From contig JADGJC010000010.1 of NCBI GenBank assembly GCA_027596075.1, positions 182,435 through 246,434 on the forward strand: 64,000 nucleotides of DNA, given 5' to 3'. Shown piece after piece: positions 4,090 to 50,609 of the stretch (the stretch's first letter is position 1; each line of letters opens with the position of its first letter). This stretch comes from Rhizophlyctis rosea (taxonomy: Eukaryota > Chytridiomycota > Chytridiomycetes > Rhizophlyctidales > Rhizophlyctidaceae). The position numbers and the translations under genes are program-made. The notes below the pieces were generated by a model. That model had not been told where the DNA came from. It did no database searches and saw only the letters and a list, made by a program, of their open reading frames with translations.

Positions 4090-4779
4090 CTTTTACCACA
4101 AATTCGACAAAAGTATTGTGCGGCGCGATCGTTTATGGAAAAAGTCCAACACAATGGCGGAGGAAAGCAGGTCAACCGGCGGATGGAAGTTGTGATGCCT
4201 TACTATGTAAACGAGGATTGCCACGGTGACGTAGTCCCTAAATAAACAAAACAAAGCGGAGATCACTCACGAATGATGTGCACACTTCGCCACCTTCATT
4301 TTTGGATCCAGATCCTTCATACCTTCAAAAGTTGACTTTGCTCGCCCCACCAATCTCTTTATCAGCAACGACATCACTTGAGATGGACACTATCAAGACT
4401 TCTTCATTGGCAAAATTGCAGGCTAATTGCTGCCAAATCTGCGCAGTGCAGTGTGCTCATTTGGTGTCGTCCGGCCCACGGTCAAATCTGCTTCAGCAAA
4501 TTGCGAGCTGTCAATTCCATCCGATCATCTGCACAAGACATTGATCAATGTCAGAAACATCGCCCCACCATCAATCTATGCAGGCACTTCTTCAGAAGGG
4601 GTTCCAAAGCTCATGCATGTTTCCAAACGTCCAATGTCAACAGGAAAATTGCTAAATGGGTAGCGGAACATTTAGATTTTGTGATAGATACAATATGTAC
4701 AGGAGAGCACACCGAAGGCTCCTTCGCTTCTCTCGTATATCATCGCCCAACTCGACGTAGAAGCGTCTCATCATCACGC
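4090..4779. other. Intergenic
   Basis: About 690 bases between two minus-strand genes. The + strand frames here have no recognisable domain. It probably carries the F-box gene promoter and the 3' UTR of the CCDC12 gene. Confidence 0.5.
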
Positions 4780-5635
4780 TCATTCTTCCATTGGATCATC
4801 GTCTAGATCGATGCCTGCCGTCCTTTCCGCATCAGCCGCTCCGGCTGCCTCAGCTACGTCTCCAGCTTTTTGTAATCTCTCTCCTGTTGCGACCAATTTC
4901 AGCGCAATTCAGTATAACGTGAACGAATGGCGGATAAGGGTCATGGTGTTATGTCAAGACATGATATTGAAGCAAAAAAGGAAACGTACGGATCAAATCA
5001 GCGATAGCAGCCTGTGTTCTTCGCTCCAACTTTTCCATTTTGGTCTCGAGATCGCGTTTCAGATCCCAATTGGGCTTTTTGGGCGCTAATGCTTGAAGAT
5101 CCTGTTTGTGCCAGGGAAACGAATTCATATGAATGTTTGAGATGTTGAATACTCCTTTTATTGGACACAAGCTCCCGTATAGACATTGTACAAGAGACCT
5201 AGATACTGACCACTTCTTTACTCCGTTGTTGTTCCTCCTCGAGAGCTTGTTGAGCAAAAATCTCCGTCTAGGTTCAGCCAAAAACCTGACAGTCAGTGGG
5301 CGTGATCACTTCATGCCTCTGCTTTGACATGACCACACCTGGCCCTCGACGGTATCTGTTACGTCCTTGGCGGTAGGCCCAACAGTCGGAGCCTCTTCCT
5401 GAAGCTTTTGGAGGTCCTCAGATATGGGTTGGTAATTCCGGAAGCGAAGTGAGGGTCTGTCGGTAGAACTGGTGTCAGCGGACAATTCTTTCGGGAGCTA
5501 CTGCCCGAAGAAAACATCGTCAGCGCACTTTGCGACATCTTCATTAGCGGATTCGATTTGAGGGACTGACGCTTTGGCGTTACGGAGGGCGGCTAGGCGA
5601 GCTTTTCGTTGACGGGATTGCTCTTCAAGGTTCAT
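4780..5635 (-). CDS. CCDC12: CCDC12/Cwf18 spliceosome-associated protein
   Basis: Assembled from five small exons on the minus strand. The start ATG is at 5635. Exon 2 ends at 5339, exon 3 is 5267-5211, exon 4 is 5101-4990 and exon 5 is 4883-4780. The last three introns are in phase and have good splice sites (71, 108 and 106 bp). The donor and acceptor of intron 1 (between about 5560 and 5440) are ambiguous. The protein begins with an Arg/Lys-rich helix, carries FRNYQP, then the family signature LAPKKPNWDLKRD followed by a coiled segment with RRTQAAIADLIRERLQK, and has an acidic tail. This is the diagnostic layout of CCDC12/Cwf18, a component associated with the Prp19/NTC-containing spliceosome. 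No single open frame shows the gene. Confidence 0.88.
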
Positions 5636-17580: not shown

Positions 17581-17661
17581 GGCCGAATAGCAAAGTGGTT
17601 ACTGCGTCAGGTTTAGGCCCTGATCTCTTCGGAGGCGTGGGTTCGAACCCCACTTCGGTCA
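17581..17661 (+). tRNA. tRNA-Leu (anticodon UAG)
   Basis: All four arms fold. The acceptor stem GGCCGAA pairs with TTCGGTC (one G-U), with an A discriminator. The D arm contains the AGTGGTTA loop type. The anticodon stem TCAGG/CCTGA encloses the loop TTTAGGC, giving anticodon TAG at 17614-17616 with T33 and G37. A class II variable arm (TCTCTTCGGAGG) marks it as Leu. The T arm GTGGG-TTCGAAC-CCCAC is perfect. No intron is present. CCA is not encoded, as expected for a nuclear gene. A T5 run at about 17668 can end Pol III transcription. It reads CUA and probably CUN by wobble. Confidence 0.95.
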
Positions 17662-40814: not shown

Positions 40815-43671
40815 CTACGCCTCCGCAGCCCCATACTTCCCACTAACAACCGCCTTACTAACCCCTTCAACCCTCACCCTCCCCCCACTCCCCTCCTCAA
40901 CAACCCCAACATCAACCCCACTCAACAAACTCCCCGAACTCGCAAACCTCACCGCTACCGTCCCCGGCCTCCCCACTTCCCCCGTCTCCACCCTCGCTAA
41001 CAACTTCTGCGCCGCCCCACCATCAGTGTCGGCATCGACTTTCCAAAACAACGCCCGCCTCTCAGCGTTCCACACCGCGTTAGGTTTAGATTGCACGTTA
41101 GTGATTTTCCCTCCTCCCTCACACGTAACGAAGAACGATAAATCTCGGAGGGTGATTCCGCGATTTCGAACGGCGTCGTTGATTTGGTATACCAGTACGA
41201 GGGCAGTGGACCGCTCCTCACACTTCCAAGCCGGCGTAACAAACACCGGCGCAAAAGCGTCATAAGTTGACGGATCAGCCGCGACTTGGTACTTCAATAT
41301 CACGACGGGCAAGCCTGGGCTACGAGCAACAGCGTCCAAATCAAGCGCGAAGTCGTGTGGAGTGTCGGGAGTTATAGACCGTGCAAACGCGTCGTTTGTT
41401 ATGACTTTACCGATGCTGGCAGCGTTACCTAACCGGATTCTCCCACCACCCCTCCGTCGCCCATCATTCATCCACCCACTGGAAACTTGCACGCTAACTT
41501 CCCCCGTCACGAGGAGTTTATCTACCACCCCACCCTTCAGCAACACGTTGACGGTTTCGGTTATGGAGATTCGTAATGGTAAGGGGTCGTCGTTTGTAAT
41601 GGGGCTGGCGGTTCGGAGTGGGGAGTGGTTGGTGGTTTGGAAGGGGTCTTCGGTGGTGTGGTTTGTTATTGAAGAGTGGATGGAGGGGGCGAAGGTGGTG
41701 CGTTTGCGGATGAGGTCGTCTAGGCCTTCAGCGGAGGCTAGGCTGGGGCTGTCGGACATTCGGCGTGTGCTGTGGGAGGGTTTGGTGGGGGGTGATATTA
41801 GTCAGATGGAGGTTCTTTGTGATGTCCCCAAGCACACCCCATACTTTTTTCTTCTCGTCGTAGGGACGGAGGGAAGCGTCGACGCAAATTTCTTCATCGT
41901 GTTCATGGCGTCATGAGGGTTCTCAACAATGGCTTGTTGTCTGATATCTACTTTCAATTTGGTGGATGGGGTCATGCTGAATAATATAAACGTCATCAGA
42001 TCCAGCCACGAAAAAGAATAACTGGGAAATGTAGCTTGGACATGGAATAATGACATACCTTCTAGAATCGCTATGCTCATCATCCTCGTCCAAATCTATC
42101 ATGCCACTGCCCCCCATTTCAGTCTCCCACGGCGCTCGCGAAGATGGTGGTGGAATGGTATATCCTTCCTCGTCTACTAATGGTGCTGCCCCCGCCGGTC
42201 CCTATTCGACCAAGTGATACGCATCAGTCCCCGGACCATTAAAGAGCAAAACGAATGACGTACATTTGATGGAGTTATTGAAGGAGCAGCCGAAAGAGGC
42301 CCTGCCGACACCGGACCAGCCTGACCATTTTGCGTTGGAATGACAACCGACCCATGCCGAGAGCTGCAAAATATACGGAAATGGTATCAATCCCGCGTCC
42401 ACCAACAGCAACTCGCACAAAACTACGTACGGTGCAGCCGATCCCCCCGCGCTACTCAATGCCTCTCCAGTATACGCATGAGTAGGATCTCCAGTCAAAT
42501 TGCTCTTCGCCACCAAGAAGCTCTCCATCTCATTCGTGACATCAAAGTTCAATGCTGCTGCGAGCAGGGCATCGGATATGGCGGGTCTGGACGAACCGTG
42601 TTTTGCATCTGATTGGGCGAAACGGACGATGGAGTCTTTGATGTTTGATAGGCGCTTTTCGTCAATGGTTTGTAATTTCTGATAGAAGAGGTTGATATGT
42701 GCAGTGCTTGTTAAGGACCAAGAAGAAACGAGGGCGTACCTGGAAGGCTTGCGCGGCGTTAGGTTGCCATTGGCTTTTCATATGTTCTGCTGCCGCATGT
42801 GCGTCCGCCGTCTTCTTATCTGGGTTTTGTTCAATATCGGGATCATGGAGTCACGATCAGTGCTTTGCGAACGGTTACCTTGCTTGTCCGAGTTACCCTT
42901 CTTCTTTGCCTTAGCAGCCGCCTATCAAGTACAATACATGTCAAGACTCATGCCTTCCCAAAAATCATCCATTTGAACCACTACCTTATGATACTTTGCA
43001 AGCTTCTCCTCAACCTCCTTAGCACCCTTCACCAGCTCCGTTTCATGCTAATCGCAACAATATCAGGTTGAATTAGTCCCGTCGACCTGCCAACCTACCC
43101 ACGGTGTCCGCCTTCTAACCTGTTTAGCCCATTGCATATCTGGATCTCCTTGGTTCCCCGTGCTCTTGGCAATCTCTGCCAAATCCTTTGCCTGTGCGGA
43201 GTGAAGTTGCGATACTTCCACCGTTGACGCGGTCAGTTGTTCCCATACGGGGGCGAACGTCCTGTCGTAACCTTGATCAGAATTCGCATCCTTCCGTACA
43301 AGCTTCAAGCGTTCCAACATACCCAAGCTCAACCGGCACAGGCTTCCGCGCCAGACGCGTCAGCGACGCTGCGTACGCTTCTTCGATTGCGGCCCTGTGG
43401 TATGAGGGTACGACGTTGGGTTTGCCCTTCAGTCGCGTTTTTCCACCAGTAAAACTCGACGACTCAGACCTCTCACGGAAATAACCCGTCACAACGTCCT
43501 CTAACGCGCTCCCACGCTTAACCCGGCCGAGCACCAGCTCCACCGTCTCCTTCGGCTTATCATACTGCCAAAAATAGCCCACCCCAGTTAGAGAGCTTGG
43601 TGACGTTGAACATGCAAGATACAACCCAAATATCAGCAGAACATACACTGAATGCCTCCGCAAAACCCATA
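40815..43671 (-). CDS. Muniscin endocytic adaptor, Syp1/FCHO family
   Basis: Multi-exon minus-strand gene from ATG 43671 to 40815. The 5' exons encode an F-BAR domain: ETVELVLGRVKRGSALEDVV, then IEEAYAASLTRLARKPVPVE and TFAPVWEQLTASTVEVSQLH, the order and motifs of FCHO/Syp1. Short internal exons continue the helical bundle (LLAAALNFDVTNEMESFLVA). A linker follows with DEEGYTIPPP and PSTKLKVDIRQQAI, both characteristic of muniscins. The last exon (from about 41759) carries the mu-homology domain, opening LPLRISITETVNVLLKGGVV. Muniscins nucleate clathrin-coated pits at PI(4,5)P2 membranes and recruit AP-2 and Eps15. All key parts are present and the gene looks intact, though individual exon ends in 41.8-43.3 kb are approximate. 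Confidence 0.85.
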
Positions 43672-44139
43672 GCTATACTGTGTTTCCCCCTTTACGTCGC
43701 GTTTAGATGTGTGGAATTGGTTGTTATGTGCTCATGAGGGTCTACCAAAAGTTAGTTTTAGTGACAGGAAAGAGGAAGGAGGGTTGAAATCGGGGTGGAG
43801 GGGATGGCACGATTGTGATATGGCTTGCATTCCAATCGCACTGCCACGTGCTCAATCCGACTGCAATGCATGCGTTTGTCACTTTGGCTTACTCAATCAT
43901 GACATCAGTGACATCAGATCGACACACCCTGTGACCGTCAATCAATGGCAATCAGTCACCAACAAACCCACATAAAACTGAAACCTCCCCCTCCTTCCCC
44001 AAATTCTTCTTTGTTTTTTGTTCCTCATCAGAACTCGTTTGTGTGTGTTGCATTGTGAGGGTATCCGACCTGGGCTCAACCACACTCACCTGAGCTCCTC
44101 AAGGTTCCTTCACTCCCGCCGAACTCGCCCACAAGACAC
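43672..44139. other. Intergenic
   Basis: About 470 bases: promoter side of the muniscin gene, pyrimidine-rich towards 44000. No gene seen. Confidence 0.5.
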
Positions 44140-45370
44140 CCACAAGTCAAGCGATCTGCCATGAGCCCTTTGCGCCTCGTTCGTTTCCATTTCGGAACGG
44201 GATATCGGTCGGCCCACACTGGATTATCCGGCATTTGCCGCGTTCAAGCCTTCTTGGCCTGACGCAGTCTGGAGAGCTGTCACGACATCTGCACGGGCGT
44301 CTGCCACTGGCGGAAATGTCTGTCACGCCGGCGCAATTGGGGCATGGGCATGGGATCAATTCCGATGTATAGTAGGACTCTTATTATCTTGTATAGTCAT
44401 TGCATTCATGTATAGATTAATGAACGCCTTCGACTTCGACACCAACCCCCCACTTGGAGCTCCCGCTCCCCAAGTTTTCGATCTACCATGTTTCAACCTC
44501 ACTCGCTGCAACGGACGTTCCTTCTTTGGAACGGGACCCCGACCCCCCGGACCGTACGCTCGTAACTTCCTGCCGATGAGCCTTTTTGGCCCGACAGGGT
44601 TGCAGCGCGGTTGGGGAATCTGTGCAGGACTCCTTCCCGAACAGATGGATGGAGAATTCCTGCCACGGTGCTGGCGATGGGGCATGTGTATGGGATCCAT
44701 CCGATGTATAGATAGCGACATAGTAGTAGTGTATAGGGTTTGTGTTATGTATAGATAGTCACACAACCTTCGACGTCAACATCCCCCCCCCCCCCCGCGA
44801 AGCACACGAGCTTCCGCCTCAAGTTCATCGATCTACCACATCACTCACTTCGCTCCACGTAACCGTTTCCTTCCTTGCGAACGGAATCTCCTGCCGCCCT
44901 CTTGAACCGTTTCAGGGGCAGACCGTTTTTCGGTTATAGCCCTACGCCGAAGTGCCTTTTTGTGCCGGGCGTGGACTTGCGAGGCGGCAGAGATGATTTG
45001 TGCTGAGGCTCTCTCCGTCACGGTTTTTCTGGCGGGAGGGTGAGCGGTTTGGGAGATGTGTGTATGGGATTCGAAGCATCGAGCTTCCCTCAAGTTCAAG
45101 ATCATCGATCTACCATGTTCGGCCATTCGCTCCACCATACGTTCCTTCTTGTGAACGGGATCTCCTCACCTCCCCGCGGACCGGTTCACGGGCACACTGC
45201 GTAGTATTGCCCCGCCAAAACGGCCTTTTTGGCTAGGCGCGGTTCCTTGCGGGGCGGTTAGAGATGATTTTGGGCGGCGCCCTGGCCACCTTTTGTGGTC
45301 GACGGGTTATGCCATGGTGGGGGGAAGGCTGCATGTGTATGGGATGTATCCGATGTATGGAGTAGGTTAC
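44140..45370 (+). repeat. Tandem ~300-bp repeat array, block 1 (about four units)
   Basis: Diverged units recur at about 44150, 44479, 44829 and 45108. Each begins near CGATCTACCATGT or a variant. It then has a first hairpin around CGTTCC-T-rich-GGAACG, a CCGGACCG-like segment, a second hairpin (GCC-TTTTT-GGC type) and a GGGCGGTTAGAGAT-like stretch. Units 1, 2 and 4 end near TATGGGATCCATCCGATGTA or a variant, unit 3 near a shortened form. No protein frame is conserved among units. The direction given is arbitrary. Confidence 0.7.
44922..44934 (+). other. T5-loop hairpin in repeat unit 3
   Basis: ACCG-TTTTT-CGGT, a perfect 4-bp stem with a T5 loop, one of the recurrent small hairpins of the array. 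Confidence 0.55.
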
Positions 45371-46249
45371 AGGATGGAGGGATACTTAGCTTTGTTCAGA
45401 TATCTTTGTATGGGATGATGAGGAGAAGGGGGGAGGTGATACGGCTTTGTGAGGTGAGTGCAGAGGGGAGTATATATTCCACCATGACCTTTTTGGTCAA
45501 GGGAGTTGAAGTCACCCCTGGCCGCGAGGTAACCAATCCTTGAGAAAGGGGGTGAGTGAAATGTTTTGTCATCCTAGATGGCGGACGTGGGATTGGGAAC
45601 CGTGGGGGTACGTGGCGAGGGGCTTCGTCCGGCGGTACCGTTTGGGTTGGGTGCTACTTACCACATTCTTTTGACCAGCACAGATAACGAACACGTCCTG
45701 GCTAGCGGAGATCACGAGGAGGGACTACTGGCAACGCGCCTGTGAATGCGTTGGTAAGTTTTTTGCTCCTCATCTTTGCGATCTCAAAGAACATCCATAG
45801 TAACCCTTCCTTTTCTTTAGAATGCCAGGCGCGGCATAAGTGATTGGCCTCTCCCGTGTCACCGAAAGGGGGTTTGGCGGCGATAAGCTGGGGAATTAGA
45901 GAAAGTGTGAGTTACATAGGAACCTCAGACGTCCATTCCTCTATGAGTTGATTGTTGGGGAGAGCCAACCTCGGAGTAGGTGACGGGGGAAGAGGTCTGG
46001 GTTATGATGTGCATTTGGAAATGGTGGGTGTAGGTGGATGGGTGGGATTTTGGAGGTATGTCTTGTTGGTATCTTTCATTCTTCGTTCAGCTTGTTGATT
46101 GGTGGAGTCTTTTTCTTTGTAGATCCGAATCGCTAGGACATGTGGTGACACACTAGTCGGCGGCCTTTCTGCGACATAGACTCTTTTCAAGACTACGATA
46201 CGGCCATCCCTTAACCCCATTCGCAACCCGTCGCGCTTCCCCTTAAGTT
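45371..46249. other. Spacer inside the repeat array
   Basis: About 880 bases that interrupt the ~300-bp units. A T5-loop hairpin occurs at 45485-45499, but the surrounding unit sequence is not recognisable. No gene is called. It may be a heavily decayed set of units. Confidence 0.4.
45485..45499 (+). other. T5-loop hairpin
   Basis: TGACC-TTTTT-GGTCA, a perfect 5-bp stem around five T residues. The stem sequence differs from other units although the T5 loop and inner CC/GG pairs are shared. Confidence 0.6.
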
Positions 46250-46293
46250 CAAGTCATCGATCTACCATGTCGACCTTCTCACAACCACCATAC

Positions 46294-46308
46294 GTTCCTT
46301 TTTGGAAC
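46294..46308 (+). other. T5-loop hairpin in repeat unit 5, first position
   Basis: GTTCC-TTTTT-GGAAC, a perfect 5-bp stem. Confidence 0.65.
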
Positions 46309-46370
46309 CGGATCTCCTAACTCTCACCCCCGCGGACCGGTTCACCGGCACACTTGTTGCCGCGCCATAG

Positions 46371-46385
46371 TGGCCTTTTTGGCCA
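46371..46385 (+). other. T5-loop hairpin in repeat unit 5, second position
   Basis: TGGCC-TTTTT-GGCCA, a perfect 5-bp stem, 77 bases after the first hairpin of the same unit. Confidence 0.65.
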
Positions 46386-47375
46386 GGCGAGGAATCGTGG
46401 GGGCGGTTAGAGATTGGTCTTGTGCTTGCGCTCGCTAGGCGGGTGCGGCGATGGTGAGAGATGTGTCGGCGTGTTGTATGGGATGTCAAGTTCAAGACCT
46501 CGATCTGCCATACACCTTCTCTCAGTCGCAGCACCACCGCGCGCAACCTTTTTGGAGCGAGATCCCTGCTGCCCAGGACCGTATCGGTTGCATATGGCCA
46601 CGTCTTACCTTTTTTGGGAGGGCGGAGTCCGGGCAGTATTATCCGATAGGTGTACATTGTACAACCGTTCCGTGGTGGGTGTGGTTGGGGAGGGGTGGAG
46701 GCATGAGATCAATCCGATGTAAGGTAAATTTCGTAGCTTTTTGTATAGGGTTGTGTTTATGTATAGTTGGCTACTCGGCTTCGAGGGAGCATTGGAGCTC
46801 CGCACGCACCTACCAACACCCTAATCTGCCATTTCGCCCCCGCCGTGTGCTTCCTTTTTGGAGCAGTGATCCAGTGTCCAAGACTGTTACGGCTGAGATT
46901 GATGCCACGTCTGGAGCTTTTTTGGCCCAGCGGAGTCGGACATGTTTGGGATCTGTATAAGTTTACTTTTCCACGGGCGGGGGGATTTGGGGTGTGCGGT
47001 TGGGGTATGGGATGTACAGTAGGAAAGTCTCGCAGCTTTGTATAGGGTCGTACTTCATGTATAGTTTAGCAACCTACGATCTCGTCTTCCGAGGGAGCAA
47101 TCCGAGCTTCCACGCATCTACCTACCACGCCTGAACTCCACTTCCTCCCCCGCCGTGTGCTTTCCTTTTTGGAGCTGTGATCACCCTTGTCCAAGACTGT
47201 TTGCGGCTGCGATTGATGCCACGTTCTAGAGCCCCTTTTTGGGTGGACGTAGTTCGGACATTGTTTGGGATCTGTGTATGTGGTAAACCACCACACCTTT
47301 TGTCCACGGACTGGGGGGGATTTCGGGGGTGGGTGGGGGTATGGGATGGTTTCCGATGTATAGTCTAGATGGGGG

Positions 47376-47950
47376 GTCGGGAGGGAGAGATGGAGGGGGG
47401 GAGGGGGTGCTGGATTGGAAGGTGAAAATCCAAGCATAGCGACCGTCATACTCGGTGGCTGCCGGGCGCCTGGGGGTGCACGGCAGACAAGGGACGGTAT
47501 GCCGTTTGGTGAAGTGACCAGGTAAAGTCGGGAATGCATGCCCTGCCATACCCCGTATTTTCCAATGCACACCCTGACATGTTTCTTTGTGGAAGAAGGG
47601 TGAGACCTCTCCACGAACAAAACACAAGACCACGAGCACAACCTTGCTGGCTCCTTGCTTTATGTAAGGTTTGGGACTGATGGCTTTCTTGCCCTCCCGC
47701 CCGTTACCCTTTCGCGGTTTCTGGGTAGACGCAACAAGACTATGATTCATGTGAGGGCACAGGATATGTAATATGAGTTTCTTAATCTTTGTTTACAAAT
47801 TTGTATATAGAATACTGCACTTCCGTTTCTACAACTGCTTTCACGTGTTCAAAAGTCTATACTTCGAGGTCCTACCCTTCCCTGTAAAATACTGCTAAAC
47901 ATACGAGATCCTTTCCTCTACATTCAAACTAATTCTCTTCCACCACCACA
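47376..47950. other. Intergenic
   Basis: G-rich purine tract at about 47370-47410, then unremarkable sequence into the 3' flank of the GH5 gene. No gene is supported. Confidence 0.45.
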
Positions 47951-50609
47951 TCACGCCTTCGACCCGGCAATATCAAAACTCTGATACTGACTTCCGCTGC
48001 AGGGCTGTACATGAGCTTCAGCACCTTCGGTCGTTTGTCCTTCGGTGTCGATGCAGTAGTTGCTGCCGTCGGCGGCTTGGATGCCCGTGACGGTGCTTGT
48101 GCCGGAGCTGTTTGGGGAAGAGAGGGGCGTTGTGTGAGTAGATGATTGGAGATGGAACAGAGGAAAGGGAGGGGGAAAGAGTGTACATACACGAAGTTCA
48201 GGATCCACAACGAATACTGCGTGCAATCCGCTCCTTGGGGTGTGAAGTCGATGTGGGTCGTTGTGGGCTAGTTGGTTTCATTGAGACGATGCAAAATCAG
48301 GATTTGTGTATGGCGGTTGAGCGTGGTTCACGAAATGGGAGCTTTCACAAGGGTAAACTTACACTGCTATGCCAAATGCACTGCTGAGACCACCCGCTCC
48401 GGATAGACCATGTGTTGTTTCCGACATAATCAAAGATCCACGAGTCGCTCGTCGTCGACCATGCGGCTCCCCAGGTGTTTTGACTGTTCCAAACAAGGAA
48501 GGAAATTGTAAATTCTTCGCACTCTTAACACCCAACCTCCCCTCAAACTCCCCCGATCCTCACCTCTCCGTAAAATACCACGTCGCCCCACCGGACACAT
48601 AAGTACTCGCAACCGAACTCGTAAAGTGCGCCGGCGCACCATTGGGAGTTTTGACGGGCCCAGGGATAGGACCAATGACGTTAGACCAAGCCGTCAACGA
48701 GCCACTCCTTTCCGCACCGCCTCGGACGCGGTAGAAGTAGTTCACTGTCGAGTTGCCGATGGGGTCGCGGTAGATTGGGGTACCGAAGGGGACGTTGTCG
48801 GTGACGTTTCTGGAGAGGGTTGTCCAGGTGGTTGGGCTGGATTCTGGGGCGCTTTGGACCTGTTTATGAAGAAGTGTGAGAGGGTGGTAGTTGGAATGGG
48901 AACGGTGAGCAAACAATACCTCATACTGACTCGCCCATGCCGAGCCTCTCCAAATAAGCACACCACCATTAGCAGCAGGAAGCATGACAGGCGGTGTCGT
49001 AGGCGCCGGGTACAACGGCACACTCAACCCATTGATCGTGAACGACGCGCCGAAGAGCAACTTAACAACAGGAATTTCCTCGGTTCCAAAGCCCGGGTCC
49101 CGTGCGGGGAATCCGGGGAAGTGGTAAGACCAGTACCCGCCGTCCTCGGAGTGGATGTAGAAGCCTCCCTTGTAGCTGTGGGAACGGAGAGACCAGATGA
49201 GGGCTCCGGCGGTGTTGGTTTTGATCACGTTGTTGACGAGGTTGGTGTAGGTTGTCAGGTCTGAGAGACCGAATTCACCGATGAAGTAGACCTGATTGAT
49301 GGGTATGTTTAGGTTGTGTTGTGTGAATGCGTCGAGGAAGTTGATGGAGATACGACACCTTTCCGGCACCATTGATGACACGCAAATCGTTCTTCATCCG
49401 CTGGATGTCGGTGTTTCCGCTGTCGTACATGTGGTTCGAGAACATATCGACGTAAGGACTATTCAATGATTGAGTAGCGATGCGGCTGGTGTTCGCGCCA
49501 ATGAGTGTTCCATCCGCAACAAGAACGTTGGGCGCAAGAGTCTTGATATGTTTGGCGATATCCGCTGTCCATGCACCCGCCGGAGGTCGCTGGTCCCATG
49601 ATCCGAGCTCGTTGCCGGTCTCAATGACGGCGAGCGCTGGGTCGTTGGCATAGATTTTGCCGTTGACGGTGTTGCGTCGGGTGAGAAGGAATGTCAAAAA
49701 GTCCTGAAATAGTGATCGATATCCACAACGGTGCTGTCACGAGATGCGCTTGGACTTACCTTGAACGATTGCCTCACGTCTGAATCCAAGAAGAATGTCT
49801 CCCAGGATCTGTTTCCTTTGCACAAGTATGCAAAGTCGCCCCCTAAAAGCGGAAGGTGTCAAGTTTTCCCACGCTAGGAAAAGGCACTTCCAGCGACATA
49901 CAGTTGCCGACGTAATCCAGATTTGTGTTGCTGGTGCCGTCGCTGTTGAGCCAGTCATTGTTGACCAGAGGAATCATCAGGCGGACGCCATCTGTGAGGG
50001 TGGGTGAGCTAATGCCTTCGTCATTCCCACGTGAAAAGCATCCATACTCTTCGCTGCGATATCCAACACATTGTCCAGAGAAACAAACGCAGCTTCCTTA
50101 TACTGTCGACAGCCGAGGATATGGAAATCAGGCCCCGAAGCGTAGGAACTGTCTATCGAAAGTGTCAGTCCGCTTCACTGATGAACGTAAATAAACAACC
50201 GAATGCGTACTGATTCCAAGTGTGTACGTGCGAACCAAAGGATTGTTCAGTCCTGCCACCGATTGAAGGTAATCCTGAACGTCGAACAAGTTGGGCAACT
50301 GGAACCCGTTGCCTCCATCCTATTGTGTACATGTTAAGATGGTGTCTCAGTATGCATGACATGCGAAGTACCACCTACCGCATTCAAAATGAGACTCGCG
50401 GCATTGAAATTGATGAACCGAAACTGCTTTCCCGACGCGTAGAGCTTGGTACCGCTTCGAGACAAGCGAGTGAGCTGTCCTTTTGTGATATGCGCGTACT
50501 GGGTGTTGGTGTTGTGCGGTGTGAGTTTCACAGTTTTTGCGTTTCCCAGGACTAGCATGCACGCTACCAGCAGCAGCAGCGCCAAGAGGGTTGTCAGCTT
50601 GACGGCCAT
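47951..50609 (-). CDS. Secreted glycoside hydrolase family 5 (mannanase-type) enzyme
   Basis: Multi-exon gene from ATG 50609 to a stop at 47951. The first 24 residues (MAVKLTTLLALLLLVACMLV...) are a signal peptide. Exon 1 continues to FRFINFNAASLIL, the start of a GH5 barrel. Conserved parts follow: RLMIPLVNNDW, then VIETGNELGSW holding the acid/base Glu after Asn, FSNHMYD, and VYFIGEFG with the nucleophile Glu. GALIWSLRSHSYKGGFYIHS closes the barrel. Downstream is a beta-rich region resembling a fibronectin-type module, then a C-terminal part with paired Cys and Gln (CIDTEGQ, PCSGSQYQSFD) that recalls a ricin-B-like lectin. It should act outside the cell on beta-mannan or a related plant glycan. 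Small-exon boundaries are approximate. Confidence 0.82.

Follow-up and report, generated by a model that had tools for sequence, protein, structure and literature searches.

We analyzed a stretch of 64,000 nucleotides of Rhizophlyctis rosea (contig JADGJC010000010.1, hereafter the window), in which a sequence-only reading had pointed to an array of repeated, hairpin-bearing units at positions 44140-47375. We found there eight diverged units of one type (A units, U1-U4 and U6-U9), a different noncoding element (element B) embedded between U4 and U6, and a leader upstream of U1. For comparison we searched the 44.1-Mb assembly of 634 contigs; below, C-numbers denote contigs and L-numbers denote fetched loci.

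The limits of the units were set by matching of landmarks. Further, we built a covariance model, R1, from an alignment (A2) of the five units which aligned best out of the eight (U4, U6, U7, U8 and U9), and held out U1, U2 and U3. The features, with R1 scores and expectation values (E), were as follows:

44017..44074, plus strand: 5' leader, preceded by a pyrimidine-rich tract, where the transcript is proposed to start; BLASTN matches on C258 (79%) and C26 (83%)
44153..44357, plus strand: unit U1; held-out match, 39.3 bits, E 2e-9
44480..44697, plus strand: unit U2, central arm differs; held-out match, 31.8 bits, E 2e-7
44830..45072, plus strand: unit U3, with an extra T5-loop hairpin ACCGTTTTTCGGT; held-out match, 27.0 bits, E 3e-6
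45107..45346, plus strand: unit U4; model member, 85 bits
45454..46160, plus strand, outer limits approximate: element B; homologues on C442, C124 and C4 (three)
45754..45820, plus strand: predicted intron 1 of element B, GTAAGT...TTTAG, 67 nt; aligned GT...AG in C442 (72 nt)
46056..46122, plus strand: predicted intron 2 of element B, GTATGT...TTGTAG, 67 nt; aligned GT...AG in C442 (67 nt)
46259..46485, plus strand: unit U6, both T5 hairpins with 5-bp Watson-Crick stems; model member, 88.5 bits
46502..46710, plus strand: unit U7; model member, 86.3 bits
46823..47014, plus strand: unit U8; model member, 94.7 bits
47121..47348, plus strand: unit U9; model member, 105.6 bits

With default filters R1 recovered the eight units, including the three held out, and nothing else in the window, in agreement with the about eight units noticed before. 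The mean pairwise identity of the units was 45% (gaps scored as mismatches), and the first 165 bases of U4 were about 80% identical to U6. A model without base pairs scored U1, U2 and U3 at 32.7, 31.1 and 25.4 bits, respectively. Since this model recovered the held-out units as well, most of their signal lies in the sequence; therefore common descent is secure, while structure adds a modest amount. We conclude from these alignments that the eight A units share one ancestor through old duplications. The reported repeat length of about 300 bp holds for start-to-start distances (243-350 bp, and 1152 bp over the gap) and not for the units themselves, which are 192-243 bp long and, the B gap excepted, separated by spacers of 16-132 nt. 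The array is tandem, yet it is interrupted at 45347-46258 by a different multi-copy element. We rejected a ninth unit ("U5") in this gap, as the gap holds element B and R1 gives there only a 6.5-bit hairpin match.

The earlier suggestion of a satellite was not borne out: Tandem Repeats Finder (TRF) reported no array over the units, and eight units at 45% identity are not the many near-identical copies of satellite DNA. We did not detect A units outside the window by genome BLASTN, by one pattern or by R1 on 37 fetched loci, so that distant A units could lie elsewhere. Weak R1 matches at other loci (set bests of 16.6, 16.1, 16.0 and 17.9 bits, the last with E 0.006) were not accepted as units; the eight alignments listed for the 16.6-bit set consist mostly of hairpin A or C plus scattered pieces. 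An absence of copies elsewhere, which the sequence-only reading had counted against itself, holds for the units in these searches and does not hold for element B and the leader.

We did not observe coding potential common to the units. There are seven open reading frames (ORFs) of at least 100 aa overlapping 44140-47375; the four of them that were scanned gave no Pfam match. Alignment gaps between U4 and U6 and between U8 and U9 break the frame. By these gaps and the four scanned ORFs, the absence of a shared protein frame was upheld, and a tandem protein-coding family (coding repeats) was rejected.

Each unit consists of hairpin A followed by a branched arm terminating in hairpin C. The fixed order of landmarks reported earlier (start landmark, hairpin A, hairpin C) was found in all eight units, the start landmark being degenerate in U8 and U9. 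The shared end motif was found in part: the full form with CCGATGTA occurs in five of eight units (U1, U2, U4, U7, U9), and U3, U6 and U8 have only TATGGGAT. The description of paired T5 loops also fits partly. A run of five or six T, read by eye, is present in the loops of four of eight A hairpins (U6-U9) and seven of eight C hairpins (not U1), that is 11 of 16. The TGACC/GGTCA hairpin, previously assigned to the units, belongs to element B instead, and ACCG-T5-CGGT is the third hairpin of U3. When a Watson-Crick stem of at least 4 was demanded, we counted four plus-strand T5 hairpins within 44.1-47.4 kb, one of these in element B, and none in the remaining 60.7 kb of the window. No A5 hairpins were found in this count.

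The gap between U4 and U6 holds a noncoding element and is not a spacer. Genome BLASTN with 44100-47400 gave, besides self, five matches, all of them in the gap (two on C442, one on C124, two on C4). Closer comparison yielded six copies of element B, namely the one in the window, those on C442 and C124, and three on C4; the best C442 match was 71% identical over 513 columns. These alignments show the gap element to be paralogous to a noncoding element that is dispersed in the genome. The copy in the window has a GGTAC..GTACC core, two predicted introns and a donor-like GTGAGT 31 nt 5' of the T5 hairpin TGACCTTTTTGGTCA. The hairpin is kept in each copy, and a donor-like site lies 29-47 nt upstream of it in six of six (GTGAGT, GTAAGC, GTAAGT, GTGAGC, GTAAGT, GTACGT). 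A pattern of this hairpin, at up to two mismatches, occurred at six places in the genome, five of which are B copies, and the reversed pattern at none. If predicted intron 1 is removed, the joined exons pair as CGCGCCTG/CAGGCGCG, and the same hairpin forms in C442. For intron 2, the joined exons of C442 give a 12-bp interrupted hairpin, and the window version is weak.

The 3' part of the B copies on C4 reappears on C6 and C612. A conserved ATCCGTAGCTCCC-loop-GGGA-CCGTRATAGCCGGG is present at the 3' side of the C4 copies (L019), on C6 (L036) and on C612 (L049); there was no Rfam match at this ATCCGTAGCTCCC/CCGTRATAGCCGGG stretch. Neither three exact patterns run against IMG/VR nor a scan for the B hairpin in prokaryote genomes gave a match, which says little on fungi.

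The leader is likewise common to the array and other loci, as the BLASTN matches listed above show. The form on C258 (pattern TTCAGAACTCGTTTGTGTTGCATC, up to three mismatches) was found on C258, C26, C28 and C367, and the reversed control gave none. The leader copy of the window escapes this pattern because it is too diverged (five mismatches).

We then compared the folds of the units in three alignments: A1, of all eight units over the domain that begins with hairpin A and ends with arm B, and A2, both structure-blind, and A6, which was fitted to the structure by the model. RNAalifold found the domain fold unaided on A2 (-52.4 kcal/mol). It comprises hairpin A and the stems P4 and P5, together with P6, a small GGC/GCC hairpin, and the arm P7-P8, which ends in hairpin C. 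A closing stem, GATC/CCAT...ATGG/GATC, appears in the consensus fold of the eight units. Consensus-fold energies were lower than those of column shuffles (z = -5.9 for A2, -3.2 for A1, -4.3 for eight whole units). We also used a phylogenetic null of 200 alignments simulated on the fitted tree, each scored with its own best structures. None of the 200 was as low as A2 (z = -4.7) or A6 (z = -7.1), while for A1 (z = -3.4) at least one simulated alignment was lower. Single units on the plus strand had z-scores from -1.8 to -3.2 against dinucleotide shuffles for U1, U2, U3, U4, U6 and U7; 21 control windows ranged from -2.7 to 1.4.

In A6, 84.2% of 222 cells pair, compared with 32-48% when slid. 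Changes on both sides of a pair were present in 15 of 28 pairs of A6 (shuffled mean 8.9, reached by 0 of 500 shuffles) and in nine of 28 pairs of A2 (reached by 10 of 500). The covariation score of A6 was reached by none of 500 shuffles. Against the phylogenetic null the both-sided count was extreme only on A6 (0 of 200), that is, on the alignment fitted to the structure. The compensatory change suspected in the sequence-only reading therefore exceeds phylogeny on A6 and does not on A1 and A2, and its proposal of a structured RNA family is favoured by the fold energies and not by the both-sided counts of A1 and A2. We rate a common fold as supported, not proved, for the domain running from hairpin A to arm B.

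Over 43600-48000, Rfam 15 gave no match, ribozymes included, with E values up to 10 allowed, and we rejected the reading of the array as a known Rfam family. Related loci have further parts. Between the B copies on C4 sits a third repeat type, repeat C, which recurs on C367, C25, C623 and C400, and several of the related loci have their own diverged tandem repeats. Twister-P1 matches, none of which reaches the Rfam cut-off, share the strand with nearby elements: with B on C442 (38.0 bits), and with repeat C on C25 (60.8 bits), C367 (45.5 bits) and C623 (35.3 bits). Genome-wide, we scored 61 of 3377 first-look candidates for twister-P1; all 61 had E <1e-4 and four reached the cut-off. In the control, two of 14 genomes had matches, none at the cut-off. 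On C367 the leader and the twister match are about 80 nt apart, and on C26 the leader precedes a twister-type match by 3.7 kb on the same strand. The body upstream of twister is 72% identical between L066 and L069 over 812 columns, with frame-breaking gaps; its segment GTAGAAGTCCTTTTTGTGACTCGC occurs at three of 11 twister loci, and the body matches C124 near the B copy there.

Several observations on these parts are recorded here. The repeats C on C4 (L019:4459-4643 and 4684-4866) are noncoding. On C367, inspection by eye showed the long closing stem of repeat C, CTTGCACGT...ACGTGCAAG; three loci of repeat C have a twister match downstream. Twister matches at or over the gathering threshold are C624:163537-163608(-), C61:2636-2709(-), C59:70855-70928(-) and C101:7650-7719(+). 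Three further places, on C442, C367 and C623, are beyond the 61. Many twister matches lie behind a shared noncoding body, and there is a cluster on C624. An Rfam tRNA match of 34.9 bits (L047:1214-1283, C258) is inside a leader-bearing noncoding locus; ARAGORN, run on ten related loci, reported no tRNA and did not see this tRNA-like match. C28 has a 127-bp tandem pair on the reverse strand of L064 (2363-2488 and 2479-2603) with a T-arm-like GGTTCGAATCC.

Taken together, we lean towards the explanation that the locus is a gene of about 3.4 kb for a spliced plus-strand noncoding RNA, a probable member of a modular superfamily. Transcription by RNA polymerase II would begin near 44.0 kb. Splicing would remove at least two short introns of element B, after which the flanking exon strands could pair, and each A unit would fold as a domain closed by the predicted GATC/CCAT...ATGG/GATC stem. 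The U-rich hairpin loops, about 16, are putative docking sites for one RNA-binding protein. The transcript might then be a multivalent scaffold, whose stems would be free to drift as long as pairing and loops are kept; we hold these last two steps less firmly. The gene would be one of a larger group of noncoding RNA loci of modular build, which share leaders, T5 hairpins, element B and other modules, and some of which also have predicted twister ribozymes.

Several results weigh against this explanation. A2 is a selection of five units, and A1 folds to -26.1 kcal/mol. The both-sided pair counts of A2 and A1 are ordinary under the phylogenetic null (reached by 32 of 200 and 35 of 200, respectively), and further pair types were no higher than in shuffles (A6, 127 of 500; A2, 223 of 500). 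Folded singly, U8 and U9 are no lower than dinucleotide shuffles (z = -0.6 and -0.5), and structure contributes only 0.7-6.6 bits on the held-out units. The splice-junction hairpins are no better than shuffles (intron 1, z = -0.7 and -1.3; intron 2, z = -0.7 and -0.8). As to the strand, the minus strand is stronger by z in four of eight single units and in five of eight unit alignments (for example U7-U9, -6.3 vs -3.1), the consensus fold of element B has z = -4.8 on the minus strand vs -3.1 on the plus strand, and in A6 G-U cells outnumber A-C cells only 17 to 11.

The likeliest alternative is that of a polycistronic precursor, from which cutting would release each unit as an RNA of its own, about 200 nt long and working singly, as in snoRNA clusters. 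Up to the processing step it overlaps with the explanation we prefer, and our estimates need not total one; we consider it unlikely. The units do have a closing stem and lie 16-132 nt apart outside the B gap. Twister matches and a tRNA-like match at related loci suggest that cutting of RNA may occur in the superfamily. The array itself, however, has no Rfam match in 43600-48000, and no single 3' end is kept, the CCGATGTA tail being present in five of eight units. No C/D or H/ACA snoRNA match was found at the array in Rfam, which lineage-specific snoRNAs could escape.

Retrozymes and ribozyme-bearing circular RNAs are dispersed noncoding elements with small self-cleaving ribozymes (PMC4918200, PMC7229834, PMC10162972). 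The loci related to the array are likewise dispersed and noncoding and have twister matches, and the array could be a decayed mobile element of this kind, with modules spread by copying. Element B, repeat C, the leader and the twisters are found over many contigs, often with diverged tandem copies. We nevertheless regard this as rather improbable. No self-cleaving ribozyme was matched in 43600-48000, the matches being at related loci; BLASTN and one pattern placed the A units at a single locus, and most of the dispersed copies, at 70-90% identity, are old.

Another possibility is that the array binds protein as DNA, and that the hairpins matter at this level. Near-palindromic stems could serve as binding sites, and minus-strand folds are equal or better by z in five of eight unit alignments. 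The fold energy is lower on the plus strand in eight of eight units. Folding alone did not settle the strand. We favour the plus strand because element B has its splice signals there, because the leader is shared, and because of the orientation of T5 vs A5 loops. In 23 related loci, which we oriented ourselves by their leader, B, repeat C or twister, there were 12 T5 hairpins on the proposed RNA strand, five or six of them outside recognised elements, and no A5 hairpins. The T5 vs A5 orientation of 16 to 0 at loci so oriented, the introns predicted within B, and units too diverged for a homogenised satellite make a DNA-level array very improbable. There is an equally small chance that these are old repeats without functional RNA structure, whose G+C-rich inverted sequence mimics pairing; the ordinary both-sided counts of A2 and A1 and the poor folds of U8 and U9 would fit this, and the A2 and A6 fold energies under all 200 null alignments and the covariation score beyond all 500 shuffles speak against it.

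Going beyond the spliced-RNA gene, dozens of modular noncoding RNA genes might form a superfamily of shuffled structured modules (leader, A units, B, C, twister and tRNA-like parts) around U5-loop hairpins. The superfamily would be a class of large ornate RNAs that is eukaryotic and specific to its lineage; its members would share a protein partner, and the array would be a highly amplified one of them. We put this forward tentatively and consider it doubtful.

Drosophila roX1/roX2 and the mammalian Xist A-repeat are long noncoding RNAs with repeated related hairpin domains, which drift fast and keep their stem-loops. The array is similar in being noncoding (frame-breaking gaps, no Pfam match in the four ORFs scanned) and in repeating related hairpin domains within one predicted transcript. 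That several homologous units of the locus have a fold in common is seen in the fold energies and not in the both-sided counts of A1 and A2. In contrast to the short stem-loops of roX and Xist, the array has eight multi-arm domains of about 200 nt. It is also fungal and has an embedded element and a leader from a dispersed set. OLE, ROOL and GOLLD are large ornate structured noncoding RNAs of bacteria (PMC12286853), which the predicted large structured RNA of this locus resembles; unlike them it is not bacterial, has no Rfam match and consists of repeated units. Fungal structured RNAs, some of them intronic, are known from two comparative screens (PMC8216456, PMC5640933). The array is similarly structured and noncoding, and differs in having no match to any Rfam 15 family (E up to 10). 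A term search of the main texts of both papers gave no occurrence of "chytrid" or "tandem". The titles and abstract openings found in a literature search describe no chytrid RNA of such kind, and the print record may still hold one. The absence of "chytrid" from the main texts of the two screens suggests that early-diverging fungi have been little studied for structured RNAs. Eight paralogous domains together with paralogous loci would record how a large noncoding RNA grew by duplication of domains while the fold was kept. The many twister matches, several of them beside the elements, would offer a fungal system for testing the function of ribozymes in nuclear noncoding RNAs.

The array is flanked on one side by a minus-strand muniscin/FCHO-like gene (Pfam muHD well over the cut-off, FCH slightly under it). 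On the other side are two minus-strand ORFs (48560-49697), which gave no match in a Pfam scan. When the whole window was compared with Rfam 15 at the gathering threshold, the only match was a tRNA at 17581-17661, a tRNA-Leu gene. The VAP/scs2 protein of the window has its best named relative in Rhizophlyctis rosea (81% over 57% of the query), and the next best named relatives, among the 120 matches listed, are mostly chytrids. Between U2 and U3 there is a run of 14 C at 44783-44796.

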